Source: Salinicola acroporae (lineage in GTDB: Bacteria; Pseudomonadota; Gammaproteobacteria; Pseudomonadales; Halomonadaceae). Taken from it: DNA of 64,000 nucleotides. The position numbers and the translations under genes are program-made. The notes beneath the pieces are model-generated. The model made no database searches. It was not told where the DNA came from and worked only from the letters and a program-made list of their open reading frames with translations. Below, one piece after another: positions 32,071 through 57,342 of this stretch (its first letter is position 1; each line of letters starts with the position of its first letter). The DNA lies in contig NZ_PZJW01000002.1 of assembly GCF_003206615.1 (NCBI RefSeq), forward strand, positions 212,018 through 276,017, in the 5' to 3' direction.

Positions 32071-32169
32071 CCCGCCGTCGACCGTCTCACGCTGTGCGAA
32101 TCGAGACGATGCGCTAAGGTGGAAAGAATAAAAAACCTGATCATCCATCACCGTTCGAGGGATCCCACT

Positions 32170-33750
32170 TTGATATCACCGACTCGCCTGGCAGCCACCA
32201 TCGGTTTCGCAGCCACCCTGAGCGCCCTGCCCATCCAGGCAGCCACGCTGCACATGGGCATCTCCGGCGATCCTGCGTCACTGAGCCCGGCCAAGATCAC
32301 TGGCGGCGTATGGGAAGAGGATGTCCTGCGGGACATCTTCGAGGGCCCGATCGCCATCGATGTCGACGGCCAGATCATCCCCGGCGCCGCCGAAAGCTGG
32401 GAGATCTCCGACGATGGCAAGACCTACACCTTCCACCTTCGCGATGGCCTCGAATGGTCCGACGGCGAGCCGCTGACCGCCGACGACTTCGTCTACGCCT
32501 ACCGTCATCAGGTCGACCCCAAGACCGCGTCCAACTACGCCCATCGCCTCTATCCGGTGGTCAATGCTCAGGCGATCAACGCTGGCAGCAAGCCGCTCGA
32601 TTCGCTGGGCGTCGAATCCCTGGACGACGGCAAGACGCTCCAGATCACCCTCAACGCCCCCACTGTCTATTTCCTCAAGACACTGGTGCTGCCGTTCGCC
32701 TACCCGATCCCCAAGCATGTGGTGGACGAGTTCGGCGACGACTGGAGCGACCCCTCCCACATTGCGGTCAACGGCGCGTTCAAGCCGGTGAAGTGGGTCT
32801 CTAACACCGAGCTCGAGACGGTCAAGAACGATCATTTCCATGATGCCGACAACGTCAGCCTGGATGGCGTCGACTACTACCCGCTGGAGGACAAGAACGC
32901 CGGCATCCAGCGCTTTCGTGCCGGAGAACTGGATATCTTGCGTGACTATCCGGCGGCGCAGTATCCGCGCCTCTCCGAAAACCTGCCCGATGCCACCCAT
33001 CTGTTCCCCTCGCTGGGCACCTACTATTACGTGTTCAACCTGCGCGACGGCTCGCCGGTGGCGGACAAGCGCGTCCGCGAGGCGCTGAGCCTGGCGATTC
33101 GCCGCGACGTCATCGCCAAGCAACTGCTGAAAGGCGGCGTCGAGCCGGCCACCTCGCTGGTACCGCCGGGAACCAGCGACTACGACGCCCAGTCCCAGCC
33201 CGGGCTCGATGACGACATGGACAGCCGTCTGGCCAAGGCCAAATCGCTGATGGAAGAGGCCGGCTACGGCCCGGACAAGCCCCTCGAGCTGACCCTGCGG
33301 TTCAACAGTGGCGACGAGCACCGTCAGATCGCCGTGGCCGTCGCCGCGATGTGGAAGCCGTTGGGCGTCGATGTCGAACTCAGAAACACCGAAGCCAACG
33401 TCCACTACGCCGACCTCATGGAGGGCGATTTCCAGGTTGCCCGCGCCGCCTGGATCTCCAGCTACGACGACGCCCAGAACTTCCTCCAACTGCTGTCGGC
33501 GGAGACCAACAACTACGGCGCCTACCAGAACGATGACTACAATCAGCTGGTCAGCCAATCGGACGCCGAGCAGGACCCGGGCAAGCGGGCGCAGCTGATG
33601 CAGCAGGCCGAAGCGCTAGCGCTGGCCGACTACCCGCTGACGCCAATCTATACCTATAGCTCGCGCAACCTGGTCAATCCCGAAATCGAGGGATGGAACG
33701 ACAACGCGCTGGACATGCACGCCTCGCGCTGGATCGAGCTGCCGGAGTGA
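32170..33750 (+). CDS. oligopeptide ABC transporter substrate-binding protein (OppA family), copy 1
   Basis: About 526 residues with a signal peptide (LAATIGFAATLSALPIQA, cleaved before ATLHMG). SBP family 5: SWEISDDGKTYTFHLR, LEWSDGEPLTADDFVYAY, RFRAGELDILRDYP and the NLVNPEIEGW end are typical of OppA/MppA. It binds peptides in the periplasm. First of four paralogs. There is no ATG; I take TTG at 32170 with GAGGGA 7 nt before it. The alternative GTG at 32119 would add 17 residues and an over-long charged N-region. Confidence 0.9.
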   Translation: MISPTRLAATIGFAATLSALPIQAATLHMGISGDPASLSPAKITGGVWEEDVLRDIFEGPIAIDVDGQIIPGAAESWEISDDGKTYTFHLRDGLEWSDGEPLTADDFVYAYRHQVDPKTASNYAHRLYPVVNAQAINAGSKPLDSLGVESLDDGKTLQITLNAPTVYFLKTLVLPFAYPIPKHVVDEFGDDWSDPSHIAVNGAFKPVKWVSNTELETVKNDHFHDADNVSLDGVDYYPLEDKNAGIQRFRAGELDILRDYPAAQYPRLSENLPDATHLFPSLGTYYYVFNLRDGSPVADKRVREALSLAIRRDVIAKQLLKGGVEPATSLVPPGTSDYDAQSQPGLDDDMDSRLAKAKSLMEEAGYGPDKPLELTLRFNSGDEHRQIAVAVAAMWKPLGVDVELRNTEANVHYADLMEGDFQVARAAWISSYDDAQNFLQLLSAETNNYGAYQNDDYNQLVSQSDAEQDPGKRAQLMQQAEALALADYPLTPIYTYSSRNLVNPEIEGWNDNALDMHASRWIELPE

Positions 33751-33788
33751 CGAGACCAACGTCTAACTGTGACCGAAATCACAACGGG

Positions 33789-33806
33789 GGCGGCGTCACT
33801 GCCGCC
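33789..33806. terminator. stem-loop between oppA copies 1 and 2
   Basis: GGCGGC-GTCACT-GCCGCC, a 6-bp GC stem with 6-nt loop, lies 40 bp after the first oppA stop codon in the 253-bp gap before the second copy. No T tract. It could be a weak terminator or an mRNA 3'-end stabiliser that uncouples expression of the first binding protein. Confidence 0.35.
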
Positions 33807-34003
33807 TTCGCGCACCTATATGCATGAGATGAAACGGACTATCGAGCATTTGAATTAGACGGATCATGAGGTTCGCGCGAAGGTGTCGCATCGATCCCCG
33901 GGCTGATCATTAGCCGGTTCACTGATGGCACGCTCGTGGCGATCGCCCTACAACGAGCCTTTCACAACGGATTTTCACAACAACAAGTCGGAGCTTTTCA
34001 AAG

Positions 34004-35602
34004 ATGTCGAAGCTGCAACTCCCCCGCACCCTGTTTCCCCTGAGTGCCCTGGCGCTGGCCACCTCGCTGATGGCATCGCCGGCGCTGGCCGAGACCCTCA
34101 GTATCGGTGTCCAGGGCGAGCTCGCCTCCTTCGACACCTCCCAGGTCTCCGGCGGCGTGTGGGAATCCCAGGTGCTGATGGACGTCTATGAGGGCCTCAT
34201 AAAGCAGTCACCCGATGGTGAGTTGCTGCCGGGCATGGCAACGAAGTGGGAGGTCTCCGACGACGGCAAGACCTATACTTTCCACATGCGGGAAGGTGCG
34301 AAATGGTCGGACGGCGAGCCGGTCACCGCCGAGGACTTCGTGTTCGGCTGGCAGCATCTACTGGCGCCGGAGAACGCCTCCAAGTACGCCTACATGCTCT
34401 ATCCGATCGTCAATGCGGAAGCCATCAACACCGGCGACAAGGCCGCCGATACGCTGGGGGCGGAATCTCTCGATGACGGCAAGACGCTCAAGGTCACCCT
34501 CAACCACCCAACGCCCTACTTTCTACAACTGTTGACCCACTACACGGCCTATCCAACGCCCAAGCATCTGGTCGACGAGTACGGCAAGGACTGGGTCAAG
34601 CTGGACCATATCGCCACCAACGGCGCGTTCAAGCCGGTTGACTGGATCTCTCAGTCGAAGATCAGCGTCGAGAAAAGCCCGACCTACTACGATGCCGACG
34701 ATGTCTCCCTGGATGGCGTCAACTACTTCACCGTCGAAGATCGCAACGCCGGCATCTCGCGCTTCCGTGCCGGCGAACTGGACGTGTTGAGCGACTACCC
34801 CTCCAGTCGCTATCAGTGGCTGACCGAGAACCTGCCGGACGCCACCCACATGAGTCCGATGCTGGGTTCCTACTACTACGTGCTCAACCAGCGCGACGGG
34901 CACCCGACGAACGATAAGCGCGTGCGTGAAGCGCTCAATCTTGCCGTGCGTCGCAACGTGCTCTCCGAGCAGATCATGGCCGGCAGCTTCAAGGCGTCCA
35001 CCGCCATGGTTCCACCGGGCACCAGTCACTACGAAGCCCAGCATATGGACCTGGGCAGCGACGATATGAACGCGCGCATGGCCAAGGCCAAGAAACTGCT
35101 GCAGGAAGCGGGCTATGGCCCCGATCATCCGCTGAATCTGAGCCTGCGCTACAACACCAGCGACGAGCACAAGAAGATCGCCATCGCCGTGGCCGCGATG
35201 TGGAAGCCGCTGGGCGTCAACGTGCAGATGGTCAACTCCGAGGCCACCGTCCACTACCAGACCATCCAGCAGGGGGATTTCGATGTCGCCCGTGCCGGCT
35301 GGATCGCCGACTACAACGACGCCGAGAACTTCCTCACCCTGCTGCACACCGGCGTCGGCAACAATTACGGTGCCTACTCCAATCCGGAGTATGACAAGCT
35401 GATGGATCAGGCCGCCCAGACCCAGGATCTGGATGCCCGCGAGAAGCTGCTCGAAAAGGCGGAGAACGTGGCGCTGGACGACTACGCGTTCATCCCCATG
35501 CTGACCTACGTCACCCGCAACCTGGTGAATCCGAAGCTCGAGGGCTGGGAGGACAACGTCGAGGACGATCATCCGTCCCGCTGGGTTCACTTCACCGAGT
35601 AA
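34004..35602 (+). CDS. oligopeptide ABC transporter substrate-binding protein (OppA family), copy 2
   Basis: 532 residues with a signal peptide (LFPLSALALATSLMASPALA, before ETLSIG). Family 5 SBP motifs: KWEVSDDGKTYTFHMREG, KWSDGEPVTAEDFVFGW, RFRAGELDVLSDYPSSRYQW, NLVNPKLEGWEDN. Very similar to copies 1 and 3. Directly followed by the YkfC-like endopeptidase gene (53 bp gap), which suggests that this receptor may bind murein peptides as MppA does in E. coli. No lipobox, so a soluble periplasmic protein. Confidence 0.93.
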   Translation: MSKLQLPRTLFPLSALALATSLMASPALAETLSIGVQGELASFDTSQVSGGVWESQVLMDVYEGLIKQSPDGELLPGMATKWEVSDDGKTYTFHMREGAKWSDGEPVTAEDFVFGWQHLLAPENASKYAYMLYPIVNAEAINTGDKAADTLGAESLDDGKTLKVTLNHPTPYFLQLLTHYTAYPTPKHLVDEYGKDWVKLDHIATNGAFKPVDWISQSKISVEKSPTYYDADDVSLDGVNYFTVEDRNAGISRFRAGELDVLSDYPSSRYQWLTENLPDATHMSPMLGSYYYVLNQRDGHPTNDKRVREALNLAVRRNVLSEQIMAGSFKASTAMVPPGTSHYEAQHMDLGSDDMNARMAKAKKLLQEAGYGPDHPLNLSLRYNTSDEHKKIAIAVAAMWKPLGVNVQMVNSEATVHYQTIQQGDFDVARAGWIADYNDAENFLTLLHTGVGNNYGAYSNPEYDKLMDQAAQTQDLDAREKLLEKAENVALDDYAFIPMLTYVTRNLVNPKLEGWEDNVEDDHPSRWVHFTE

Positions 35603-35655
35603 CGGCTTGAGCTGTCTTGCAGGGGCGCCGACATGAGTCATCCAGGAGCATCGAC

Positions 35656-36639
35656 ATGACTTGTGTCGCCGTCGCCGTGGCGGGATTGTGGACCTCCCCC
35701 GAAGCGCCGCGGGCCATCGATGCCCCGGCGCTGGGCAACCCGGCACTGCTCGAGCGCTGGCTCTCCCGTCTGGACGACGAGACTCGCCTGGCACTGTGCA
35801 AGGAGAAGCGGCTCGCCACCCAGGTGCTGCTGGACACGCCGGTCGAGATACTCGAGCGCCATCGTGATGGCCACGGCAATGACTGGTGTCGCGTCGTGGT
35901 CCCGAGCCAGCGGTCCTCGCTGGACGAGCGCGGCTACCCCGGCTGGATTCCGGCGACACAGCTCGTCGAGGCAGCGGGCTGCCCGGCCGATGCCGAGTCG
36001 GTGGTAGTGATCGCTCCCATCGCTTGGCTGCAGGGTCTGCCCCAGGGACGCTCGCTGAAACTGAGTTTTCTGACTCGGCTGAAACTGGCCGAACCGGTGA
36101 CGGACGTCGCTGACCGGAGAGCGTCCCGCGTCTGGGTGGAGACATCGCTGGGACGCGGCTGGCTGCCACGCGACGGTGCCCAGTTGCCGGGCGAGGGCCT
36201 GCCGGCGACTGCCGCGACGCTGGAAACGCTGGGTCGGCGCTTCGACGGTCTGCGCTATCTGTGGGCCGGCAACTCGAGCTTCGGCTACGACTGCTCGGGG
36301 CTGGTTCACAGCCTGTTCGCTGCCATCGGCATCACACTGCCTCGGGACGCCCACGATCAGGTCGAGACAGGGCATCCCATCGAGCTGAACGAACGCCAGG
36401 CCGGCGATCTGCTGTTCTTCGAGAAGCCCAACGACGCAGGCCGGCTGGTGGTCGACCACGTGGCGCTCTACCTCGGCGATGACCGCATGCTGCACGCGCC
36501 GACCAACAACGCCCGAATCGAATGTCGTCGACTGCTGGGCAGTCGATACGAAACGCAGCTCTGCGCCGTGCGTCGCTATCTCGACCTGGGCGATCCGGGA
36601 ACGGCGATTCCAGCGGGAACTATTCCAGCAGGAACCTGA
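35656..36639 (+). CDS. NlpC/P60 family gamma-D-glutamyl-L-diamino acid endopeptidase, YkfC-like
   Basis: 327 residues. The N-terminus VAVAVAGLWTSPEAPRAID, the DAPALGNP motif and GYPGWIPATQLV match the SH3b domains of YkfC; the C-terminal NlpC/P60 domain has Cys213 in YDCSG, His268 in DHVALYLG and His280 in MLHAP as the catalytic set. YkfC cleaves between gamma-D-Glu and the diamino acid in free murein peptides with N-terminal L-Ala. No signal peptide is evident, which implies action on imported peptides in the cytoplasm. Start ATG at 35656 with AGGAG 7 nt upstream. It sits inside the oppA array, linking transport to cell-wall peptide recycling. Confidence 0.85.
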   Translation: MTCVAVAVAGLWTSPEAPRAIDAPALGNPALLERWLSRLDDETRLALCKEKRLATQVLLDTPVEILERHRDGHGNDWCRVVVPSQRSSLDERGYPGWIPATQLVEAAGCPADAESVVVIAPIAWLQGLPQGRSLKLSFLTRLKLAEPVTDVADRRASRVWVETSLGRGWLPRDGAQLPGEGLPATAATLETLGRRFDGLRYLWAGNSSFGYDCSGLVHSLFAAIGITLPRDAHDQVETGHPIELNERQAGDLLFFEKPNDAGRLVVDHVALYLGDDRMLHAPTNNARIECRRLLGSRYETQLCAVRRYLDLGDPGTAIPAGTIPAGT

Positions 36640-36728
36640 AGACTTAAGATCGAGACGGGGTGCCAAAAACGGCGAATGCACCAACAGCCCCGGCAATAAC
36701 AAACGCTCAACAACGGATGGACTCGATC

Positions 36729-38354
36729 ATGCGCACACAGCCCAGATACGGCTCACATCGAAGAACCGCCAGGCTCGTTCTTCCCCTGCTCGCGGCCGTG
36801 AGCCTGGCGACAGCCCTGTCCGTCGACACCGCCCGGGCCGCCACGCTGAGTATTGGCATCCAGGGTGAACCGGCCTCGCTGGATACCGCCCGGATCGGGG
36901 GTACCACCTGGGAGAACGACGTCCTCGGCGACCTGTTCGAGGGCCTGGTCACGCTGGACCCGGCCGGCGAGTACATCCCCGGCGCCGCCAGCCGTTGGGA
37001 CATCAGTGACGACGGCACCGTCTATACCTTCAAGCTGCGCGACGACGCCAACTGGTCGGATGGTGAACCCGTGGTCGCCAAGGACTTCGTGCTCGCCTTC
37101 CAGCGTCTGTTCGATCCGGCCAATGGTGCCGTCTACGCCAGCCTGTTCTATCCGATTCGCGGCGCCGAAGCGCATACCAAGGGCGAGCAGGACGCCCCCG
37201 AACTCGGCGTCGAGGCGGTCGATGCCAAGACCTTGAAGATCACCCTGAACCAGCCCACGCCCTACTTCCCGACGCTGCTGGCACATATCGCCGCGTCGCC
37301 GGTGCCTTCCCACCTGGTCGAGCGGTTCGGTAACGACTGGACCCAGATGGATCATATCGCGACCAACGGCGCCTTCACCCCGACAAGCTGGACCTCTCAC
37401 GATCACATCGCGGCGCGCAAGAACCCCGAATTCCACGACGCCGACGACGTCGCCCTCGATGGCGTCGACTACTATCCGGTCGAGGATCGCAGCGCCGGTC
37501 TGCAACGCTTCCGCGCCGGCGGTCTCGACATCGTTCGTGATTTCTCGCCGGACCGATACCAGTGGCTGCAGGAGAACCTGCCCGACGCCGTGCATCTCGC
37601 GCCCCAGCTGGCCAACTACTACTTCGCGCTCAACCAGCGCGATGGCCATCCGACGGCCGACAAGCGCGTGCGCGAAGCGCTCAATCTGGCAATCCGCCGG
37701 GACGTGATCGCCGCCAAGATCATGGGCGGTGTCGTCTCCCCGGCCAGCGGCTTCGTCCCCGGCGGCGTCAGCCACTACGATGCCCAGACCATGCCTGGCC
37801 TGGATCGGCCGATGGATGAGCGGATTGCCGAGGCCAGGAGTCTGCTCGCGGACGCCGGCTACGGCCCCGATCATCCGCTCGAACTGACGCTGCGCTACTC
37901 CACCACCGAAGCCAACAAGCGCATCGCCGTGGCACTGGCCGAGATGTGGCAGCCACTCGGGGTCGAGACGCAACTGATCAATGCCGAGGGCGCGGTCCAC
38001 TACGCCGAGCTCGCCAATGGCAACTTCGATGTCGGTCGCGGCAGTTGGGTCGCGGACTTCGACGACGCCAGCAACTTCCTCGGCATCCTGCAGAGCGACT
38101 CGCCCAAGAACTACGGCGGCTATCGCAGCCAGGCGTTCGACGATCTGATGGCCAAAGCCAGCCGCGAGACCGACGAAGACGCCCGCCAGCAGCTGCTGCA
38201 GCAGGCAGAGCGGCAGGCGCTGTCCGACTATGCGGTGGCACCGATCTACGTCGACGTCTCGCGCAACCTGGTCAACCCCAAGCTGGATGGCTGGGAAGAC
38301 AACGCGCTCAACCGGCACCTTTCTCGGTGGCTTTCGCTGCCGCAGGGGAACTGA
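36729..38354 (+). CDS. oligopeptide ABC transporter substrate-binding protein (OppA family), copy 3
   Basis: About 541 residues. The long signal peptide has a twin-arginine-like basic N-region (SHRRTARLV) before VLPLLAAVSLATALSV and likely cleavage at ARA-ATLSIG. SBP family 5 motifs: RWDISDDGTVYTFKLRDD, NWSDGEPVVAKDFVLAF, RFRAGGLDIVRDFSPDRYQW, NLVNPKLDGWEDN. The RR pair lacks the full Tat consensus, so Sec export is assumed. An ATG 12 nt earlier (36717) is possible. It follows the YkfC-like gene by 89 bp. Confidence 0.92.
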   Translation: MRTQPRYGSHRRTARLVLPLLAAVSLATALSVDTARAATLSIGIQGEPASLDTARIGGTTWENDVLGDLFEGLVTLDPAGEYIPGAASRWDISDDGTVYTFKLRDDANWSDGEPVVAKDFVLAFQRLFDPANGAVYASLFYPIRGAEAHTKGEQDAPELGVEAVDAKTLKITLNQPTPYFPTLLAHIAASPVPSHLVERFGNDWTQMDHIATNGAFTPTSWTSHDHIAARKNPEFHDADDVALDGVDYYPVEDRSAGLQRFRAGGLDIVRDFSPDRYQWLQENLPDAVHLAPQLANYYFALNQRDGHPTADKRVREALNLAIRRDVIAAKIMGGVVSPASGFVPGGVSHYDAQTMPGLDRPMDERIAEARSLLADAGYGPDHPLELTLRYSTTEANKRIAVALAEMWQPLGVETQLINAEGAVHYAELANGNFDVGRGSWVADFDDASNFLGILQSDSPKNYGGYRSQAFDDLMAKASRETDEDARQQLLQQAERQALSDYAVAPIYVDVSRNLVNPKLDGWEDNALNRHLSRWLSLPQGN

Positions 38355-38434
38355 GGCCCATCTCGAGGGGCGTTGGCAGAGATGCACTCATGACAACAAC
38401 AAGAGACACCGCTGGAGCGAGGGCGGAATCAGGC

Positions 38435-40045
38435 ATGACGAAAACAACAATCAGAAAACTGCTCATTATCGCGAGCTGCGCGATGTTCACACTGATGCCG
38501 CCGATGGCAGTGGCTGATATCGAAGGGGGCAAGCAGGTTCTGCGTCGCGCCAATGGGGCCGAACCCTCGTCATTGGACCCGCAACTGATGACCGGGACCT
38601 GGGAGTCGGCCATCATCTCGGATCTGTTCGAGGGATTGCTCACGCGAGATGCCGACGGCGGCTCGATCCCGGGCGTCGCCGAGTCCTGGGACATCTCCGA
38701 CGACGGGCTGAACTACACCTTCTATTTGCGTGGCGATGCAAAATGGTCGGACGGAACGCCGCTGACCGCCGACGACTTCGTCTATGCCTGGCGTCGAATC
38801 CTCAGCCCGGAACTCGCCGCCCCCTACGCCTACATGCTCTATCCAATCCTCAACGCCCGTGCCTATAACCAGGGCGAACAACCAGCCGATGTGCTTGGCG
38901 TCGAGGCCAGCGATGACCACACGCTGAGTGTCACGCTGGCCCGCCCCACGGGCTATTTCCTGGAGATGCTGAGCCACGCATCGACCTACCCGGTTCCACG
39001 CGTCGCCATCGAGCAGTACGGCAGCGACTGGACCAAGCCCGGTCACATGATCTCCAACGGCGCCTTCGAACTGACCGAGTGGGTCTCCCACGACCACATC
39101 GCCGCAGTGAAGAACCCCGACTTCCACGACGCCGCCAATGTCGCGCTCGACGAGGTCCGGTTTCTGCCCATCGACGACGGTCGCGCCGCCCTCAATCGCT
39201 TTCGTGCCGGCGAGGTCGACATGACCAGCAGTGTGCCGACCGATCGCATCGAGTGGGCACGCGAGAATCTGCCCGACGCGCTGCATGAAACGCCGACGCT
39301 GGCGACCTTCTATTTCGCGTTCAACCAGCGCCCGGGCAGTGTTCTCAACGATCCCCGTGTTCGCGAGGCGCTCAACCTTGCCGTTCGTCGTGACATCATC
39401 ACGACGCAAATCACCAAACTCAATCAGCCCCTCGCCTACAGCCTGGTGCCCACCGCAATCAGCCATTATGACGGCCCCAAGTTCGACTTCGCTCACGAAC
39501 CGATGGATGAGCGGTTTGCCAAGGCGAAAGCGCTGATGAAAGAGGCCGGCTACGGCCCTGAGAATCCGCTGCATCTGACGATCGACTACATCACCAACCA
39601 GGACACCAAGCGCATCCCGGTGGCCATGGCCGCAATGTGGAAACCGCTCGGGGTCGAGGTCACGCTCACCAACAGTGACGCCGCCGTCTACTACTCGAAA
39701 TTGCGCCAGGGCGACTTCCAGATCGGCATGGCGCCGTGGAACGCCGACTACAACGACGCCAGTAACTTTCTGGATCTGTTCCGCACCGGCGTGCCCAACA
39801 ATCACTCCGGCTATAGCAACGCCGACTACGACGCCATGATGGAGCGCGCCTCGAACGAGTTGGATCTGGACAAGCGCGCGCGGCTCATGGCCGACGCGGA
39901 GGGCATTCTGCTGGACGACTACGCCATGTTGCCACTCTATTTCTACATTCGACCGGCACTGGTCTCGCCGTCGCTCTTCGGCTGGAGAGAGAGCCCAATG
40001 GACGATCACCTGAGCCGCTGGATGCACTTCGAAGATCCCGAATGA
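38435..40045 (+). CDS. oligopeptide ABC transporter substrate-binding protein (OppA family), copy 4
   Basis: About 536 residues; start MTKTTIRKLLIIASC at 38435 gives a compact signal peptide ending PPMAVA before DIEGGKQVL (an upstream ATG at 38390 adds 15 residues). It shows SWDISDDGLNYTFYLRGD, KWSDGTPLTADDFVYAW, RFRAGEVDMTSSVPTDRIEW and GWRESPMDDHLSRW. It is the most divergent copy: the mature start GGKQVLRRANGAEPSSLDPQ resembles classical OppA of enterobacteria. It is adjacent to oppB (71 bp), so it may be the main receptor of the permease. Confidence 0.93.
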   Translation: MTKTTIRKLLIIASCAMFTLMPPMAVADIEGGKQVLRRANGAEPSSLDPQLMTGTWESAIISDLFEGLLTRDADGGSIPGVAESWDISDDGLNYTFYLRGDAKWSDGTPLTADDFVYAWRRILSPELAAPYAYMLYPILNARAYNQGEQPADVLGVEASDDHTLSVTLARPTGYFLEMLSHASTYPVPRVAIEQYGSDWTKPGHMISNGAFELTEWVSHDHIAAVKNPDFHDAANVALDEVRFLPIDDGRAALNRFRAGEVDMTSSVPTDRIEWARENLPDALHETPTLATFYFAFNQRPGSVLNDPRVREALNLAVRRDIITTQITKLNQPLAYSLVPTAISHYDGPKFDFAHEPMDERFAKAKALMKEAGYGPENPLHLTIDYITNQDTKRIPVAMAAMWKPLGVEVTLTNSDAAVYYSKLRQGDFQIGMAPWNADYNDASNFLDLFRTGVPNNHSGYSNADYDAMMERASNELDLDKRARLMADAEGILLDDYAMLPLYFYIRPALVSPSLFGWRESPMDDHLSRWMHFEDPE

Positions 40046-40116
40046 CCCCTCTGAATGACGATGCCGATGAGTGAATTACGCATGACCGCAGCCAAGCCGA
40101 GAAGAGACCGCAACAC

Positions 40117-41043: not shown

Positions 41044-41119
41044 CTCATGAACAATGACCCACTCATGAAAAACGACCGAGCCTCAACGCCATTCATTCGT
41101 GCCACCGGGGAGGCCGCCA

Positions 41120-42079: not shown

Positions 42080-42089
42080 GGATAACTCG

Positions 42090-43694
<1,605 letters not shown>

Positions 43695-43755
43695 GGTTAC
43701 CTCCCTGCGGACGAAGAAAGACGATCAACAACAACAATCGACTCAAGAGGGTATC

Positions 43756-45651: not shown

Positions 45652-45716
45652 CGAGCGGGTAGAAGACGCTCGGATTGAGAGTTCCAGCCAGGATGATGAC
45701 ACCGCCGCTACGCATC

Positions 45717-45744
45717 AACGCCCTCATATCGAGGGCGTTTTTTT
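45717..45744 (+). terminator. Rho-independent terminator of the opp-pepF operon
   Basis: AACGCCCTC and GAGGGCGTT form a perfect 9-bp stem with a 5-nt loop followed by an unbroken run of seven T. Placed 65 bp after the PepF-like stop codon. Confidence 0.93.
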
Positions 45745-45791
45745 GCTTACATCCATCGAAGCTGGCAACCGTATCTACTTTAGATACCGGG

Positions 45792-45854
45792 TATAATGAC
45801 CATGATCGGCATGCGTTTTTTCTATCACATTATTCACGAAACGCATGTTTTTTT
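45792..45854 (+). ncRNA. candidate very short RNA: TATAAT box plus terminator
   Basis: A perfect -10 box TATAAT (45792-45797) is followed by CATGCGTTT (45810-45818) and its complement AAACGCATG (45839-45847), then seven T. A transcript starting about 7 nt after the -10 box would be only about 50 nt and consist largely of the hairpin. No good -35 element is seen at 17 bp, so this is tentative; it may equally be a second terminator. Confidence 0.3.
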
Positions 45855-46271
45855 GCAGTGCGAATCGCCAGAATTCGCACTTATCGAGTGCAAGAAAACA
45901 CACACAATCGGCCGGCAATAGCCCTGTTGGTAGAAAGCCGTAAAAACCTCTTCGACATCACTCGCCGCAGCATAACAGGTGTTAAGGAATCTACGACGCC
46001 GCCCCGCGGCTCTTCAACCAAGATGACTACTCTCCTTTGAGGTTTCCAACGTCATTTCGCCAATAAAACAATCGTTTACTTGAGCCAAAACTGAAACCAT
46101 CGGTTTTGTATAAAATATTCAGTGCCGCCGCCACCGCCCAGCGGCAATATTGCTTTCCACCTCAGCCATATTCGCACCGATTGGCACATATATTGCTGCA
46201 ACTTCCAACAAGGGATTGTGGCTCCTGTCGCGGAGTCACCAACAAGCAGTCACTAGAACAATCGAGACAAT

Positions 46272-47135
46272 ATGACCGCGATTGACAACGCGCTTCCCGC
46301 TGGGGAAGTGACGCCGAAACACAGACACTCGATATCTCGGCCTGAAGTCTTGGTCCTGATAGCGATCTCGGTGCTTATCCATGGATTGATCTGGTGGTCA
46401 TTGAATCGCCAACCCCTGGTTGCCGCTGAAGTGTTGCCGAATCAGGCATCCCAGGCATCGGAGGTGACCGTCTCATTGACCAGCGCGCCGCCACCCGAGC
46501 CGCCGCCGCCGCCGCCGCCGCCCGTTCAGGAGACGCCGCCCGTTCAGGAGACGCCGGTCGTGGATGACGTTGCCGTCACGCCCGCTGAAGAGGAAGTGGC
46601 ACCGGAGCCTGAGCCGGAACCGGAACCTCAGCCTGAGCCACAACCCGAGCCCGAACCGCAGCCTCAGCCCGAACCGCAACCCGAACCCGAGCCGGAACCG
46701 GAACCGGAACCTCAGCCAGAGCCGGAACCTCAGCCCGTGCCCGAGCCACCACCGAAACCCGCGCCCAAGCCAGCGCCCCAGAAGCCTGCATCGACACCGA
46801 GCCAGCCTTCTCCGCCGACTGAAAGCGCAAGCGCAGCGTCCAGCAATGAGGTCACACCTGCCGTATCCGGCATGCAGAGCCTGGGCAACCCGCCGCCACG
46901 CTATCCGTCACTCGCACTGCGCCGCGGCTACGAGGGCAACGTGCAATTGAAGATCCTGGTCATGCCCGATGGCACGGCGGGTCAGGTACAGGTCATTCAA
47001 TCCAGTGGTCATAGGGAACTGGACGAAGCCGCCGTCGAGACGGTTCGCGGCTGGACGTTCAAGCCAGCCAAACGGGGCGATACACCGATCAAGGGCTGGG
47101 CGCTGCAGACTATCGCGTTTCAGTTGCCCAATTGA
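46272..47135 (+). CDS. tonB: energy transducer TonB
   Basis: 287 residues. A membrane anchor ([19 protein letters not shown]) with the conserved SxxxH-type helix precedes a very long Pro-rich periplasmic spacer (about residues 75-195, mostly PE and PQ dipeptides), and a C-terminal TonB domain: [37 protein letters not shown]. It transfers proton-motive energy to outer-membrane receptors. Followed at once by exbB, exbD and a TonB-dependent receptor, making a self-contained system. Confidence 0.95.
46599..46762 (+). repeat. Pro-Glu/Pro-Gln dipeptide repeat within tonB
   Basis: About 160 bp of imperfect 6- and 12-bp repeats (GAGCCT, GAACCG, CAGCCC type units) encode alternating PE and PQ. Synonymous variation among units suggests long-term selection for the rigid spacer rather than recent slippage. 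Confidence 0.85.
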
Positions 47136-47176
47136 CGAACAACAACGATGCAACACTTTCAGCAAGGAAAAACACC

Positions 47177-47893
47177 ATGATGGAATCCAATGACATCACC
47201 GCCATGATCGTACCCGGCGTGCTCTGGACGCTGATCGTCTTCTCTATCGCGACCTGGGCGATTCTGCTGATCAAGGGCCTGCAGTTCGCTCGTAATCGGG
47301 TCGAAAACAAGCGTTTTCAGAAAGCTTTCTGGGAGGCCAAGAGCATGGAGGAGGGCGAGTCGATCAGCGAAAAACGTCCGGGTACCATGGCATCGATCGC
47401 CCGTGCAGGATTCGACGTCATCACCGGGCGCGACATTTCTCCCCGTAATCAGGACCTGGCCCAGAAGATCAACCGATCCGATCGCCTGGAACGCACGTTG
47501 AGACAACAGATCCAGCGCGAACGCCGCTCTCTGGAGGGCGGGCTGGCGATCCTCGCCAGTATCGGCAGCACCTCACCGTTCATCGGTCTGTTCGGTACGG
47601 TGTGGGGCATCATGGAAGCCCTGATCACCATCGGCGAAACCGGCGAGGCGGGGCTAGATACCGTGGCCGGCCCCATCGGCCATGCGCTGATCGCGACGGG
47701 GGTCGGTATCGCCGCCGCAGTGCCGGCAGTGCTCGTTTACAACTACTTCACACGCCGGCTGAAACTCAACGTATCGCTGATGGATGATTTCGCTCACGAC
47801 TTCTACAGCCTGGCCCAGCAGCACGCCTTTCAAAGCCACACGTCCAGGCCTGTCGCCCCCGAAATACCGTCGCCTTCCCCAGCAATGGGTTGA
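47177..47893 (+). CDS. exbB: biopolymer transport protein ExbB (MotA/TolQ/ExbB family)
   Basis: 238 residues, three membrane segments. VPGVLWTLIVFSIATWAILLIKG is the first; LASIGSTSPFIGLFGTVWGIM and the following AGPIGHALIATGVGIAAAVPAV are the conserved channel helices. It builds the proton channel with ExbD that energises TonB. ATG at 47177 with AAGGA 8 nt upstream; the longer reading that overlaps tonB is rejected. Confidence 0.95.
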   Translation: MMESNDITAMIVPGVLWTLIVFSIATWAILLIKGLQFARNRVENKRFQKAFWEAKSMEEGESISEKRPGTMASIARAGFDVITGRDISPRNQDLAQKINRSDRLERTLRQQIQRERRSLEGGLAILASIGSTSPFIGLFGTVWGIMEALITIGETGEAGLDTVAGPIGHALIATGVGIAAAVPAVLVYNYFTRRLKLNVSLMDDFAHDFYSLAQQHAFQSHTSRPVAPEIPSPSPAMG

Positions 47894-47944
47894 TCTCGAG
47901 TTATCGGTATCAGCCTCAATCCGTTCATGAAAAGGTAATGTGAA

Positions 47945-48346
47945 ATGGCTTTTTCCAGTCACGACGACGATGAAGTTCTCAGCGAGATGAATGTCACCCC
48001 ACTGGTCGATGTGATGCTCGTTCTACTGGTGGTTTTCATCGTCACCGCACCGCTCATGACCAATGCCGTACACGTCAACCTGCCCAAGACAGGGGCGGTC
48101 GCGCCCCCCGAGGCCAGGGAGCCAATGGTCGTGAGCGTCGATGCCGATGGCGCTTATTTCATTGGCAAAAAGGAGTACAGCTTCGAAGACCTGGAGCAGG
48201 CGCTCGTCCAGGCCCATGACGACAATCCCGATCAGGCTGTACAGCTACAGGCGGATGAAGGAGTGGAGTACGGCACCGTCGCCAAGGCCATGGCGGCGCT
48301 GGAGCGTTCTGGTATCCAGAAGGTTGCCGTTCTCACCCAGCAGTGA
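47945..48346 (+). CDS. exbD: biopolymer transport protein ExbD
   Basis: 133 residues. One N-terminal membrane helix (NVTPLVDVMLVLLVVFIVTAPLM in two parts) carries the conserved Asp of the LVDVMLVLL motif, the proton-carrying residue. The periplasmic domain is VNLPKTGAVAPPE to VEYGTVAKAMAALERSGI. It works with ExbB and TonB. 51 bp after exbB. Confidence 0.95.
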   Translation: MAFSSHDDDEVLSEMNVTPLVDVMLVLLVVFIVTAPLMTNAVHVNLPKTGAVAPPEAREPMVVSVDADGAYFIGKKEYSFEDLEQALVQAHDDNPDQAVQLQADEGVEYGTVAKAMAALERSGIQKVAVLTQQ

Positions 48347-48522
48347 TCTCCAAAGATTGCCTGGGATACACCGCCTCGCGACGCTCGGGACGCCTGCCTG
48401 GCGTGATTCGTTTCACTGAAAAGGGAGAATAGACACTCAACGACAACAATCGCGTAGAGCCCCCGAATAACAGCCATTGAACGTCGAATACCAACAACTG
48501 CTATTCAAGGAACACCCTGATA

Positions 48523-51345
48523 ATGACAACGCCAAAAATTTGGGATGCCAAGCATCCCAGGGAATCTCTTTGCTCAAAATCCGGCTGGCGACTCTCGATG
48601 ATGCGACCGGCCCTGTGGCAAAGGTCTTCACTACTGGTGTCGACCTGCCTGATTCTTGCCGCGGCGGCACCACTGGCCATGGCACAGAGCAGTGACGATG
48701 ACTATGTCGCCCCGCCGGCCGGTGCATCCGACGAGATTGCCGAGCCGGCAGCGGCAGCGCCTGCCGAAGCGGGACCCGCTGCGGCTGCCGCCCCTGCCGC
48801 GGCCGTCGCGGCGCCCGCAGCGGCACCGACTCAGGATCTCGGCCGGATGGAAGTGACCGGTTCGGCAATTGCCCGGACCGATGCCGAGACTGCCGTCCCG
48901 GTAACGATCATCGAGGCTGAAGAGATGCGGCAGCAGGGCATTACTTCAACCGCACAACTGCTTTCGCAAATTTCGGCCAACGACACGAGCTACGGGCCTG
49001 GGTTTGGTACAGGCACGGCCATTACCGGCGGAGCCAGTTTCGCCAACCTGCGCGGTATCGGCACGGACAAGACACTGGTGCTGCTGAACGGTCGCCGACT
49101 GGCCAACAACTCGCTGGACGGCAGTGCCGTCGACCTCAACTCGATTCCTTTCGGTGCCATCGAGCGCGTCGAGGTCCTGCGTGATGGCGCCTCGGCAATC
49201 TACGGAACCGATGCCATTGGCGGGGTCATCAACTTCATCACCAAGAAAAATCTTACTGGTGGAAATGTTGAACTCGGCTATGACGCGCCCACCCATAGTG
49301 GTGGTGGCGATAGCGGCGACATCAGCGCGACCTGGGGTAACGGCGATCTCGAGAAAGACGGTTTCAACATCATGGGATCGATGCGATACCGCAAGCAGGA
49401 TGACGTCGACTACACCGACCGTGGCAGTATCCGCCAGATCTATGATCCTGCGCGCGGTATCAACGGCACGTCCTCTTTCGCTTATCCTGGTAATTATTAT
49501 CAGGGCGGCGTGGCGGGCAACCCGCTTGCCGGAGAGGGGTGTGACGGAGAAGGATTGGTCGATACCGGCGGCGGCACCTGTACCTATGACTACGGTCGGT
49601 ACGGGCAAATCCAGCAGAAGACGGAGAACACCTCGCTTTACACTCGAGCCGCTGCCAAGCTGGCAGAGAACCACACGGCCTCCCTCTCCTACCTGTGGTC
49701 ACGAAATAAAAACACCTCACTGAGCGCGCCATCACCGACTTCCGGTGGTCCGGTCATTCAGCCCGGAACCCCATTCTATCCGAACGATCCCGCGCTCGAT
49801 CCAACCCAACCGATCGACGTACGGTGGCGTGGCATCCCCGCTGGCCCCCGTGTGACCGACAACACCATCGACGCCCAGCGTCTGGTACTGGATTTCACCG
49901 GCGATTTCTCCGGGTTCAACTACGATAGCGCCGTTTCCTGGAACCGCAGTGATACTGACCTGAACTATCGCAGCGGCTATCTCGACGACAATGACCTACA
50001 AGACGCTTTCAATAATGGACTGATCGATCCGTTCTCCACCGACCCGCTGACTGCTGCCGGCCGACAGGCCCTGGCGGATGCCGAGGCCAGTGGACTGGTA
50101 TGGACCGCCCAGAACGATGTCTACGCCTGGGACGGTAAACTCAGTCGTGAGATCGGCGACTGGTTCGGGGCCGGCTCCTCGGCCATCGCCGTCGGCGCCG
50201 ACTACCGCCACGAGCGACTGAAGCTCGAGACCGATCCCGACGTAGCCTCTCGTGCGACCAGTGGCGGACTCTCGCCAGATGCATCGATCAACGAGAGCCG
50301 TGACGTCAAAGGTATCTACACTGAACTGAACGTGCCCATCATCGACGGGCTCGAGGTCACGGCGGCAGTGCGCTATGACGATTACAGCGATGTGGGCGAT
50401 ACCACCAATCCCAAGATCTCCTTCCGCTGGCAACCCTTCCAGCAACTGCTGGTTCGAGGGGCCTATAGCGAAGGCTTTCGCGCACCGTCGCTCTACGAGC
50501 TCTATGATCCCGCCGCGCAAACGTTCTCGCCAGGCGGCCTCAATGATCCAAGACTTTGCCCCGGGGGCTCGCCCGCCAACGGCGGCGTCGCCAGTCGTGA
50601 CTGTAACACCCAGTTCCTGGAGGAGCAGGGTGGCAATGAGGACCTGAAACCGGAAGAGGCCAAGAACTGGACTCTCGGCTTCGTCTATCAGCCGTTTCAG
50701 AGCTTCTCGGCGGGTCTGGACTTCTGGTGGGTCGAGATCGAGAACGAGGTTGCCCTGCCGACTTCCGATTACGTTATCGCCAACGAGCCTGACACCATCA
50801 TTCGTAACGACGATGGGTCAATCGACTACATCCCGGTTCGCTATCAAAACCTTGGCACCACCAAGACCAACGGTGTCGACGTGTCGGCGAACTACCGACT
50901 GCCGACAAGCTACGGCTTCTTTACGGTGGGCTACACCGGCACCTACGTCGATCGCTATGACTTCCAGGAAACGCCAGATGGCGATTACGTCAGCCGCGTC
51001 GGACACTACCGCGCCGGCTACGGCACGATCTTTCGCTGGAAGCACAAGCTTTCCGTCAACTGGAACAAGGGCCACTGGGGGGCCGGTGTAATCAACCACT
51101 ACATGACGGGTTATGACGACTACGATACCTCCACTAACAGTGAAGTCGGTTCCTACACGACTTGGGACGCACTGGGTTCGTATGCTTTCACCGCCGGCCC
51201 GACAGTTACCGTTGGTGTGCGTAACCTGTTCGACCGCGACCCGCCGTTCTCCAACCAGCCGGAAGTTGGCCAGCTCGGCTACGATGCCCGCTATGCCGAC
51301 GCGCTGGGTCGTACCGTCTACGCCCGTTTCAATTACGCTTTCTGA
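48523..51345 (+). CDS. TonB-dependent outer membrane receptor
   Basis: 940 residues. After a long N-region and signal peptide (LLVSTCLILAAAAPLAMA, before QSSDDD) comes an Ala/Pro-rich spacer of about 55 residues, then the plug (MEVTGSAIARTDAETAVPVT, LLNGRRLANNS, IERVEVLRDGASAIYGTDAIGGVINF) and a 22-strand beta barrel ending in aromatic Phe (YARFNYAF). The class is that of receptors with large ligands such as peptides or glycans rather than a recognisable siderophore receptor. An ATG ATG pair at 48598 gives a more canonical signal peptide. Directly after tonB-exbB-exbD and before an M13 peptidase. Confidence 0.93.
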   Translation: MTTPKIWDAKHPRESLCSKSGWRLSMMRPALWQRSSLLVSTCLILAAAAPLAMAQSSDDDYVAPPAGASDEIAEPAAAAPAEAGPAAAAAPAAAVAAPAAAPTQDLGRMEVTGSAIARTDAETAVPVTIIEAEEMRQQGITSTAQLLSQISANDTSYGPGFGTGTAITGGASFANLRGIGTDKTLVLLNGRRLANNSLDGSAVDLNSIPFGAIERVEVLRDGASAIYGTDAIGGVINFITKKNLTGGNVELGYDAPTHSGGGDSGDISATWGNGDLEKDGFNIMGSMRYRKQDDVDYTDRGSIRQIYDPARGINGTSSFAYPGNYYQGGVAGNPLAGEGCDGEGLVDTGGGTCTYDYGRYGQIQQKTENTSLYTRAAAKLAENHTASLSYLWSRNKNTSLSAPSPTSGGPVIQPGTPFYPNDPALDPTQPIDVRWRGIPAGPRVTDNTIDAQRLVLDFTGDFSGFNYDSAVSWNRSDTDLNYRSGYLDDNDLQDAFNNGLIDPFSTDPLTAAGRQALADAEASGLVWTAQNDVYAWDGKLSREIGDWFGAGSSAIAVGADYRHERLKLETDPDVASRATSGGLSPDASINESRDVKGIYTELNVPIIDGLEVTAAVRYDDYSDVGDTTNPKISFRWQPFQQLLVRGAYSEGFRAPSLYELYDPAAQTFSPGGLNDPRLCPGGSPANGGVASRDCNTQFLEEQGGNEDLKPEEAKNWTLGFVYQPFQSFSAGLDFWWVEIENEVALPTSDYVIANEPDTIIRNDDGSIDYIPVRYQNLGTTKTNGVDVSANYRLPTSYGFFTVGYTGTYVDRYDFQETPDGDYVSRVGHYRAGYGTIFRWKHKLSVNWNKGHWGAGVINHYMTGYDDYDTSTNSEVGSYTTWDALGSYAFTAGPTVTVGVRNLFDRDPPFSNQPEVGQLGYDARYADALGRTVYARFNYAF

Positions 51346-51373
51346 CGGGCAACGCGTTCCTTAACGATCGATT

Positions 51374-51401
51374 GCCGCTGCCTCATGCAGCGGCTTTTTT
51401 T
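51374..51401 (+). terminator. strong terminator between the receptor and M13 peptidase genes
   Basis: GCCGCTGC-CTCAT-GCAGCGGC, an 8-bp perfect stem followed by seven T. It lies 28 bp after the receptor stop and only 21 bp before the M13 peptidase start codon, leaving no room for an ordinary promoter between them. Confidence 0.92.
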
Positions 51402-51422
51402 CACCCGAACTACCGAGACGTC

Positions 51423-53558
51423 ATGACTGATAGAGACTTCCTGCCACCGTCGGCGATCCGCTGCGCCATCATGCTTCTGATGATCGCCGGCACCTCCGGT
51501 TCGAGCGTCTTCGCCGTTGGCAATCCGGGCGAATCAACAGCCTCGACAGCGCCGAGCACATCTGCGCCTTCCCACGCGTCGGCATCGGCCACCGCCTCTG
51601 CCGCGCTAGGAAGCTGGGGCGTCGACCTGAGCGCCCGCGACACCAGCGTCGCCCCTGGCGACGACTTCTACCACTACGTCAACGGGGGGTGGCTGGCGCG
51701 CACGCCGATCCCGGCCGATCGCACCAACTACGGCGCCTTTACCGCGCTGGCAGACCGGGCCGAGCAGCAGGTGCATGACATCCTCCGCCAGCTCGACGAT
51801 GCCAATACGCCGCCGAATTCACCCCAGCAGCGCCTCGGCGATCTCTACCACGCCTGGATGGACGAGGGCGCCATCGAGGCCAAGGGCCTCTCGCCGATGA
51901 TGCCGGACCTGACACGCCTGGCGGCAATCGAGAGCAAGGCGGGTCTGGCTCGGTTCAGCGCCGACAGTCGTCTTGGCGTGCCGACCATCGCCACCCTGGG
52001 CGTCGATATCGACGTGAAGGCGCCGGATCGCTATATCGCCTATCTCTCGCAGATCCCGCTGGCTCTCCCCACGCGGGACTACTACCTCGGCGACGATCCG
52101 CGCTTCGACGCGATTCGCCAGGCCTATCTCGGCTACATCGGCAGGCTGCTCACACTGGCGAGGCAGCCCCATCCCCGGCAGAGCGCACAGCGCATCCTCG
52201 AACTGGAAACCGCCATGGCGGAGATCGAGTGGGCGCCGGCGAAACAACGGGATCGCGACCTGACCTACAATCCGTTGCCGTTGGATCGACTCGACGACTA
52301 TGCTCCCGGTTTTCCCTGGCAGGCATGGCTCTCGGCCAGCGGTCTTGCCGGTCAGCCCCAGGTCGTGCTCGCGGAGAATACCGCCATTCGCGGCCTGGCA
52401 CGGCTCTACGACGAAACGCCGCTGTCGACGCTCAAGACCTATGCGACGTTCCGACTGCTGGATGCCAACAGCCCGTATCTCTCCAGCGACTTCAGCCAGA
52501 CGCATTTCGATTTCCACGGCCAGCGTCTCTCCGGCCAGCCGGAGCAGCGCGAGCGCTGGAAGCGCGGCGTATCGCTGATCAACGACTTCCTGGGCCAGGC
52601 TGCCGGCAAGCTCTACGTGATGCTGCACTTCCCGCCCCAGTCCAAGCGCGAAATGGAGACACTGGTCGCCAATCTCGAAGACGCCTATCGCGATCGTCTG
52701 CAACACCAGGCGAGCTGGATGACCGACCGGACCCGTCAGCGGGCTCTGGAGAAGCTCGACGCCTTCACCGCCAAGATCGCCTATCCCGATCGATGGGAGA
52801 GCTTCGCCGGGATGACCATTCGTGCCGACGATCTCTACGGCGACGTCGGAGCGGCACGCCAGTGGCACTGGCAGGATGATCTGGCCAAGCTCGGCGGTCC
52901 GGTGGACCGGGACGAGTGGTTCATGACCCCGCAGACCGTCAACGCTTACTATGCACCGTCACGCAACGAGATCGTCTTTCCGGCGGCGATCCTGCAACCG
53001 CCCTTCTTCGATCCCAACGCCGATCCGGCGGTGAACTACGGCGGCATCGGCGCGGTGATCGGTCATGAGATGAGCCACGGTTTCGACGACCAGGGCCGCA
53101 AGTCGGACGGTACCGGCATGCTGACCGACTGGTGGACGCCGACCGACGCCGCGCATTTCGACCAACTGGCCGAGCGCCTCGGGCAACAGTATGCGGAGTA
53201 CCAACCGATACCGGGTTATTCGCTCAATCCGCAGTTGACGATGGGGGAGAACATCGGCGATCTCGGAGGCGTGAACATCGCCCTGAGCGCCTATCATCGC
53301 TCGCTCGATGGCGAAACCGCACCAGTCATTGACGGCTTCACCGGCGACCAGCGCTTCTTCCTGGCCTGGGGCCAGGTCTGGCGGCGCCTGATGCGCGAGG
53401 AGGAGATGATCAATCGGGTCCAGAGCGATCCCCACTCGCCGTCGCAGTTCCGGGTCAACGGCATCGTGCGCAACATGGATGCGTGGTACGACGCCTTCGA
53501 TGTCGTGCCCGGCAACGACCTCTACCTGCCGACCGAAAAGCGGGTGGTGATCTGGTAG
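51423..53558 (+). CDS. exported M13 family metalloendopeptidase (PepO/neprilysin-like)
   Basis: 711 residues. A signal region (CAIMLLMIAGTSGSSVFA) is followed by a Ser/Thr/Ala linker and WGVDLSARDTSVAPGDDFYHYVNGGW, the M13 N-terminal signature (in two parts). The zinc site is GHEMSHGFDD with His548, Glu549, His552 and the third ligand Glu609 in GENIGDLGG. NAYYAPSRNEIVFPAAILQPPFF is the substrate cleft motif. It degrades oligopeptides outside the cytoplasm. The terminator just before it implies read-through expression from the TonB operon. Many M13 enzymes end in a CxxW motif; here the end is KRVVIW without the Cys. Confidence 0.94.
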   Translation: MTDRDFLPPSAIRCAIMLLMIAGTSGSSVFAVGNPGESTASTAPSTSAPSHASASATASAALGSWGVDLSARDTSVAPGDDFYHYVNGGWLARTPIPADRTNYGAFTALADRAEQQVHDILRQLDDANTPPNSPQQRLGDLYHAWMDEGAIEAKGLSPMMPDLTRLAAIESKAGLARFSADSRLGVPTIATLGVDIDVKAPDRYIAYLSQIPLALPTRDYYLGDDPRFDAIRQAYLGYIGRLLTLARQPHPRQSAQRILELETAMAEIEWAPAKQRDRDLTYNPLPLDRLDDYAPGFPWQAWLSASGLAGQPQVVLAENTAIRGLARLYDETPLSTLKTYATFRLLDANSPYLSSDFSQTHFDFHGQRLSGQPEQRERWKRGVSLINDFLGQAAGKLYVMLHFPPQSKREMETLVANLEDAYRDRLQHQASWMTDRTRQRALEKLDAFTAKIAYPDRWESFAGMTIRADDLYGDVGAARQWHWQDDLAKLGGPVDRDEWFMTPQTVNAYYAPSRNEIVFPAAILQPPFFDPNADPAVNYGGIGAVIGHEMSHGFDDQGRKSDGTGMLTDWWTPTDAAHFDQLAERLGQQYAEYQPIPGYSLNPQLTMGENIGDLGGVNIALSAYHRSLDGETAPVIDGFTGDQRFFLAWGQVWRRLMREEEMINRVQSDPHSPSQFRVNGIVRNMDAWYDAFDVVPGNDLYLPTEKRVVIW

Positions 53559-57123: not shown

Positions 57124-57342
57124 CGATAGTCTCCTGAACGGGAAGGGAAGCCTGAATCGGCCGACTGGACACCATTCAGTATCTCGCCTCCCCATGGCCC
57201 AGACAGGGTGAATGAGTGACTAATTTTTTTATTGTGTAACGATTCGGAAACGACTGACGACAGTTGTGCATCTCCAAGGACTCGAGTGACCGATTGCCGA
57301 CGTCGATACGCCGCCAGACGGTCACGCCCCCCATCACGCGAA

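Follow-up and report, generated by a model that had tools for sequence, protein, structure and literature searches.

A TonB-dependent receptor block beside the Opp importer of Salinicola acroporae: a candidate exchangeable outer-membrane stage

Results

Gene content of the opp locus

The stretch of DNA analysed here comprises 64,000 nucleotides of Salinicola acroporae (assembly GCF_003206615.1, contig NZ_PZJW01000002.1, positions 212,018 to 276,017; hereafter, the window) from a host genome of 4.37 Mb (G000), and the system in question is the oligopeptide permease (Opp) locus at 32119..53558 of the window, in which the importer genes are followed by a TonB-dependent receptor. Gene calls and family scans recovered on the forward strand four SBP_bac_5 proteins (OppA1 to OppA4), a protein with SH3 and NlpC/P60 domains, OppB, OppC, a fused OppDF, the oligoendopeptidase PepF, TonB, ExbB, ExbD, the receptor and an M13 peptidase (Table 1), and thereby bore out every gene named, and the order given, in a preliminary description made from the letters alone. 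OppB, OppC, two ABC ATPases and a family-5 binding protein lie at one locus, while the receptor has both plug and barrel and is adjoined by TonB, ExbB and ExbD, this TonB being one of three TonB_C matches in the host genome. Together with the comparison of relatives given below, we consider it rather probable that these Halomonadaceae have, in their Opp locus, an ancient ABC importer of peptides whose outer-membrane stage can be exchanged.

Table 1. Genes and sequence features of the opp locus and the adjoining receptor block (positions within the window)
Feature	Position	Strand	Basis
oppA1, family-5 binding protein, Ser replacing the OppA Asp419 clamp	32119..33750	+	family scan, alignment
oppA2, OppA-like binding protein, Asp419 and Arg413 retained	34004..35602	+	best solved relative 1b05 OppA, E 1.6e-106
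SH3 + NlpC/P60 protein, resembles 3h41, older locus rather than swap module	35617..36639	+	family scan, structure-sequence match
oppA3, binding protein, Asp419/Arg413 retained	36660..38354	+	family scan, alignment
oppA4 type I, binding protein, Asp419 retained, Arg413 replaced by Met	38444..40045	+	tree, alignment
oppB, permease	40117..41043	+	NCBIfam OppB equivalog, 442 bits against a cut-off of 388
oppC, permease	41099..42079	+	380 bits, under the cut-off of 433
oppDF, two fused ABC ATPases	42060..43694	+	family scan
pepF, M3 oligoendopeptidase F, export signal	43756..45651	+	TIGR00181, 526 bits against a cut-off of 491
Intrinsic terminator 3' of pepF	45717..45739	+	terminator scan
NtrC-like palindrome CGCAC-N7-GTGCA, candidate enhancer	45876..45892	+	sole match in the window with at most one mismatch
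Sigma-54 promoter TGGCACATATATTGCT, 90 bp 5' of the tonB ATG	46182..46197	+	pattern match
tonB, Pro/Glu-rich linker	46272..47135	+	family scan
exbB	47132..47893	+	family scan
exbD	47945..48346	+	family scan
TonB-dependent receptor, 940 aa	48523..51345	+	family scan
Intrinsic terminator in the gap between receptor and M13 gene	51374..51394	+	terminator scan
M13 peptidase, export signal	51423..53558	+	closest solved relative Zmp1-type 7k1v, E 1e-181; also PepO, neprilysin

The M13 gene most likely starts with the ATG at 51423, and OppA4 near 38444. By eye, the sequences that we take to be the active-site motifs are intact in M3 (HEWGH), in M13 (HEMSH with NAYY) and in the NlpC protein (Cys/His/His). 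PepF, which has 2qr4 as its solved relative, shows an export-type N-terminus by hydropathy here and in 12 of the 13 genomes with PepF, and in the thirteenth (G090) a longer PepF frame shows one by eye; the export signals of M13 in relatives were likewise assessed by eye. PepF-type enzymes have short peptides as their substrates.

Linkage of the receptor block and opp

The family set comprised 121 genomes, our own included, and was searched for the receptor at E <= 1e-60, with at most seven candidates scored per genome, and for OppB at E <= 1e-90. The receptor was found in 9 genomes, PepF in 13, M13 in 10 and OppB in 70. All nine receptor genomes carry PepF, M13 and OppB, with order and strand behind oppDF conserved throughout, and within the reach of this search each has a single receptor match, which lies at opp. 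They belong to three genera, namely Salinicola (7 of the 14 genomes examined), Phytohalomonas tamaricis and Kushneria sinocarnis. Two receptor genomes beyond the 121 (L112 and L114) have the same layout of pepF, tonB block and M13, together with the sigma-54 site described below, and a collection of named genomes yielded 12 loci, in 10 of which the receptor is closely related along most of its length. Both peptidases co-occur with the receptor (Fisher p 9e-13 for M13 and 6e-11 for PepF, uncorrected for kinship), and an in-frame M13 query matched all nine receptor regions and none of the 29 other opp regions fetched. One further M13 (G017, 40% identity) was dropped from the pattern, as none of the other queried genes was found around it.

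The preliminary description had proposed co-occurrence of the Opp and TonB blocks across the family as its own check, and by that check the blocks are linked, in all nine receptor genomes as well as in the two additional ones. Its picture of a single integrated island of 21 kb did not hold, since 61 of the 70 OppB genomes are without the receptor and since OppA1 to OppA3 and the NlpC protein belong to the older locus. The NlpC gene is part of that locus in all 14 Salinicola genomes and was not found in the Kushneria receptor locus, which takes the suggested wall-peptide branch out of the module. This protein, presumably of the YkfC type, matches 3h41 from residue 16 onwards and has no clear export signal, and is thus probably cytoplasmic. 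From the distribution of genes we read oppABCDF as the old locus of the family, made up of OppA1 to OppA3, OppBCDF and, in Salinicola, the NlpC protein, and pepF-tonB-exbB-exbD-receptor-M13 as an add-on, which is more likely functionally tied to Opp than a chance neighbour.

PepF occurs without the receptor in four genomes (G007, G031, G046 and G090), 1.9-4.7 kb behind oppDF, and in the three of these for which frames were listed, other genes intervene between oppDF and pepF. In G031 (L052, 14960-19075) these include a glutamine-synthetase-domain gene and, by eye, an oxidoreductase, with a similar arrangement by eye in G007, which may hint further at amine or peptide nitrogen use.

A porin-like gene in place of the block

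In several genomes without the block, G055 and G095 among them, the genes behind oppDF encode first a small protein, which in G055 is an EF-hand lipoprotein, and then an outer-membrane protein of about 371 aa. This porin-like gene was detected in 25 of the 121 genomes and in 0 of the 9 receptor genomes. It lies 3.8-4.4 kb downstream of the oppB start in 24 of the 25 cases, the remaining genome (G006) having no OppB match at the cut-off. Salinicola itself is split into seven genomes with the receptor, six with the porin and one (G120) with neither. The exclusion of porin and receptor reaches p 0.023 among the 70 OppB genomes and p 0.005 within the genus, both uncorrected for kinship. At the level of predicted genes, this comparison shows a swap, in which the porin is not found in receptor genomes and pepF, the tonB block and M13 stand in its place.

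Transcription units and the sigma-54 promoter

The terminator 3' of pepF, which in the preliminary description divided the locus into at least two transcripts, proved real and was found by a strict scan in 8 of the 9 receptor genomes, our own included, with an imperfect one in G077. A second terminator, between receptor and M13 gene, had escaped that description and was likewise found by the strict scan in 8 of the 9, again including our own. Because of this second terminator the number of units has to be raised, and we predict at least three: opp-pepF, tonB-exbB-exbD-receptor and M13.

Upstream of tonB lies a match to the sigma-54 pattern TGGCAY-N5-TTGCW (-24/-12), the only one in the window, where 0.12 would be expected. 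A single match means little, since the whole genome has six against five for a reversed control pattern, and it is conservation that counts: exactly one site occurs per receptor region, before tonB, in 9 of 9 genomes as well as in L112 and L114, and none occurs in the 29 opp regions without the receptor. A predicted sigma-54 promoter at tonB is thus shown to be conserved in the receptor regions. As the site lies at tonB, with none at opp, the importer and the TonB block may respond to different signals and may not be co-regulated. The preliminary description had listed responses to different signals among the results that would count against it.

The host genome encodes RpoN and has six matches to sigma-54 activators, three of them strong: NtrC and GlrR, which both exceed their cut-offs, and a protein of the PAS type. 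This last one (L199, C4:8445; PAS-type by eye) falls under all NCBIfam equivalog cut-offs and is a candidate alternative activator of the tonB promoter. A strict sigma-54 site was also seen 5' of rpoN (L187, C6:23892-23907), between rpoN and an ABC ATPase gene that we take to be lptB, and autoregulation of rpoN is possible.

In 6 of the 9 receptor genomes the palindrome CGCAC-N7-GTGCA precedes the sigma-54 site by 306-328 bp, and it is also found upstream in L112 and L114; with at most one mismatch allowed, chance would give about 0.00-0.03 matches per region, and the inner positions of the NtrC box do not fit. In a study of the NtrC/RpoN regulon, the NtrC box is a 17-bp element with GCAC-N7-GTGC ends and the RpoN motif is TGGCACnnTTnTTGC (PMC8743547). 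Iron control was considered and dropped, as a sequence scan found no Fur-like site over the shuffled background upstream in any of the nine receptor genomes.

Two types of OppA4

A tree was built from 126 binding proteins of 38 opp regions, after 3 of 129 pieces shorter than 300 aa had been dropped; 7 of the 29 receptor-less regions are without a full OppA4 and stand outside the type count. The sequences of OppA4, which is encoded beside oppB, form two clades with good support. All seven rows of type I (support 100) come from receptor genomes, of which they represent 7 of 9, and the clade includes none of the 22 receptor-less genomes with an OppA4. Type II has 24 rows, 22 of them receptor-less and two (G027 and G009) with the receptor. 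Of the two additional genomes, L114 carries type I and L112 type II. The association of OppA4 type with the receptor (Fisher p 1.4e-5, uncorrected for kinship) supports the earlier placing of OppA4 in one peptide system with the receptor. It extends to mosaic loci: in K. sinocarnis (G109), OppA1 to OppA3 are near those of the porin-bearing congener G090 while OppA4 groups with Salinicola type I, and in G077 OppA1 to OppA3 are near those of G120 while OppA4 is of type I.

Docking and simulation of OppA have Asp419 bonding the first ligand residue and Arg413 the third (PMC6305025). At the Asp419 column, Asp is retained in OppA2 (33/33), OppA3 (29/29) and type I OppA4 (7/7), while type II OppA4 has Thr in 24 of 24 rows and OppA1 has Ser in 27 of 27. 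At the Arg413 column, all 7 type I OppA4 rows have Met, and Arg is present in all remaining rows. Since Ser stands in OppA1 where Asp would hold the amino end of the peptide, OppA1 may not be a plain peptide binder, and the statement that the locus encodes four peptide-binding proteins, correct as to the SBP_bac_5 family of all four, is weakened for OppA1.

Apparent movement of the block

The DNA identity between G000 and G027 is 96.5% for PepF and 94.1% for the receptor, compared with 91.8% for rpoB and 91.1% for oppB, whereas between G000 and its nearer relative G003 it is 83.3% for PepF and 83.9% for the receptor against 95.3% for rpoB. Because PepF and receptor are discordant with rpoB in both comparisons, the block seems to be passed from one Salinicola species to another; G027, having kept a type II OppA4, has the look of a recent recipient. 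When the receptor label is placed on an rpoB tree of 30 genomes, seven changes are required, at least five of them forced by well supported branches, and 139 of 500 shufflings of the labels give a number as low, so that the label is not unusually clustered, from which we conclude that the trait has, on this tree, been gained and lost repeatedly.

The same discordance would be expected if the site were a recombination hotspot, where a cassette functionally unconnected with Opp is swapped by homologous recombination over its opp flanks. We regard this explanation as very unlikely, because OppA4 and the receptor vary together, Kushneria included, although they lie on opposite sides of the constant oppBCDF (OppA4 upstream, the receptor downstream), because porin and receptor were never found together, and because, within the reach of the search, the single receptor match of each receptor genome is the one at opp.

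Distant relatives of the receptor

A search of the class covered 369 genomes. The strongest receptor relative outside the family (G398) lies in a quartet whose tonB, exbB, exbD and receptor are 67, 63, 63 and 46% identical to ours, and ahead of this quartet, on the opposite strand, lie genes for a POT peptide symporter and an M3 peptidase. Strong receptor matches were found in 4 of 85 genomes of the order to which G398 belongs. At the other four strong loci (G565 has two, G557 and G564 have one each) nothing matched PepF, the POT or M3 proteins of G398, or M13; eight neighbour frames of these loci were scanned against Pfam, and none of the eight is a peptide gene. Seven weaker loci (about 300-360 bits) gave no match to PepF or M13. 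The distant loci were therefore dropped as a general proof of peptide function, only one of the five strong ones being in keeping with it. Among the 12 distant regions, the sigma-54 pattern lies just before tonB, ahead of the whole quartet, in G398, G565 and G557, and before the receptor in G133; it is proximal to neither in the other eight, and two further matches lie elsewhere in the G398 and G564 regions. In G565 (L150-L151, C22:171900-182148) three tandem receptor copies stand behind one tonB-exbB-exbD set with a sigma-54 site.

Other genes near the locus

Next to the block, on the reverse strand, lies a gene for a 1179-aa protein (53656-57195) with a weak Pfam match to NolX/HrpF (type III translocon-like), which varies among the Salinicola regions compared. 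Further downstream, at 59442-61994 on the forward strand, is a heavy-metal P-type ATPase; by eye, a similar frame adjoins the block in the Kushneria and Phytohalomonas loci.

Discussion

In Proteobacteria, outer-membrane peptide uptake is usually ascribed to porins. Here we think it fairly probable, from gene content and motifs, that in part of the Halomonadaceae a nitrogen-regulated, TonB-energised gate replaces the porin and feeds Opp longer peptides that are trimmed by PepF and M13. In the porin version, small peptides would diffuse through a general porin behind oppDF. In the receptor version, the receptor would bind peptides too long for the porin and draw them inward by means of its own TonB motor, M13 and PepF would cut them shorter in the periplasm, OppA4 type I, with the amino-end clamp kept and the Arg for the third residue lost, would capture the trimmed products, and OppBC-DF would carry these inward, while sigma-54, perhaps with NtrC, would turn the gate on under nitrogen shortage. 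The ligand, the trimming and the identity of the activator are what we infer. More tentatively, evolution might alternate at this locus between two matched states. In one, small peptides would pass a porin passively and meet an OppA4 that has no clamp; in the other, under sigma-54/NtrC control, the receptor would be powered, endopeptidases would act in the periplasm, and the OppA4 would be one suited to the receptor and able to take longer peptides. We find this fuller version possible but would lean slightly away from it.

A number of observations weigh against these proposals. The porin assignment relies on weak family matches (at E up to 1, Porin_1 in 7 of 17 alignment members, best 7e-8, and Porin_4 in 4 of 17, best 2e-16; one member matches a chance-like family and the first has no Pfam match), and over all 121 genomes the exclusion of porin and receptor is not significant (p 0.20). 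Type I OppA4 is not required for the receptor, as shown by the type II proteins of 2 of the 9 receptor genomes and of L112, and independent pairs run in the expected direction in three to four of five cases, with none opposite, for a p of 0.125 at best, five pairs being too few for 0.05 to be reached at that count. The M13 gene is located behind a terminator, and within the window no sigma-54 site was found at opp even with one mismatch. The lack of clustering of the receptor label on the rpoB tree belongs here as well, as does the finding that peptide genes stand beside one of five strong distant receptor loci, with M13 at none.

The receptor itself also gives reason for caution. Its solved relatives are Cir, the enterobactin receptors and BtuB, the best of these alignments covering the plug, and its profile matches, all under cut-off, are to heme, siderophore and B12 receptors. 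Such likenesses would suit a receptor whose cargo is a metal chelate, heme, cobalamin or a small metallophore and which adjoins Opp because Opp-type importers also carry such ligands, with the peptidases as bystanders or as metal-releasing enzymes. We consider this unlikely, as the upstream regions have a sigma-54 promoter rather than a Fur-like site in 9 of 9 cases, the two peptidases accompany the receptor in all nine genomes, and OppA4 type I retains the clamp for the peptide amino end. To our knowledge, the ligands of most TonB-dependent receptors have not been established. In one report, some marine receptors are placed in a group whose substrates include amino acids and the products of protein degradation (PMC3400609).

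The pair of arrangements offers a natural experimental design, in which sister species share the Opp importer and differ in the adjacent porin or powered receptor with proteases, such that receptor ligand, size limit and nitrogen control are directly testable by comparing neighbours. With a sigma-54 promoter on the tonB-exbB-exbD-receptor operon, nitrogen would join the signals known to control TonB-dependent uptake. If true, our proposal would amount to nitrogen-driven, TonB-dependent peptide foraging in Gammaproteobacteria, complete from the outer membrane to the cytoplasm. No earlier report of the receptor-Opp arrangement was found among the titles and abstract openings of the open-access papers searched, a body that most subscription journals fall outside. 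A 2025 survey predicts sigma-54 control of TonB in Flavobacteriia and terms this prediction unconfirmed (PMC12316311).

Among known systems, the closest in predicted architecture is the protease-associated import of Fus and PqqL. Fus has its own TonB-type protein and, as far as we know, no ExbB-ExbD of its own, whereas the locus described here has both ExbB and ExbD. The comparison raises a further explanation, namely that the receptor admits small proteins intact, or some specific nutrient bound to protein, for digestion in the periplasm by M13 and PepF. PepF-type enzymes, which act on short peptides, fit this poorly. In its favour, Fus of Pectobacterium and Ydd/PqqL of E. coli likewise combine a TonB-dependent receptor, a periplasmic metalloprotease and an inner-membrane transporter; those clusters commonly contain M16 proteases, and PqqL expression depends on iron (PMC6793856), whereas M13, M3 and a sigma-54 site are found here. 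We therefore deem import of whole proteins quite unlikely. The present locus differs from Fus/PqqL also in having no M16 among the proteases found, in the use of Opp as importer, in predicted sigma-54 rather than iron control, in its attachment to an older opp locus and in the alternation with a porin.

RagAB of Porphyromonas, a system of the SusCD type, is an example of TonB-energised oligopeptide uptake across the outer membrane. Unlike RagAB, the system proposed here is from Gammaproteobacteria and coupled to Opp; no SusD-family match was found among the locus genes scanned, and the SusC signature on the receptor scores 22.7 bits, under the cut-off of 46.2. With the enterobacterial Opp it has the OppA, B, C, D and F families in common, and it departs from it in four OppA paralogues, a fused OppDF and an adjacent exchangeable outer-membrane stage. 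With regard to the NtrC/RpoN regulon (PMC8743547), the promoter fits TGGCACnnTTnTTGC in spacing and conserved ends and the palindrome has the same GCAC-N7-GTGC ends, whereas the predicted target here is a tonB-exbBD-receptor operon.

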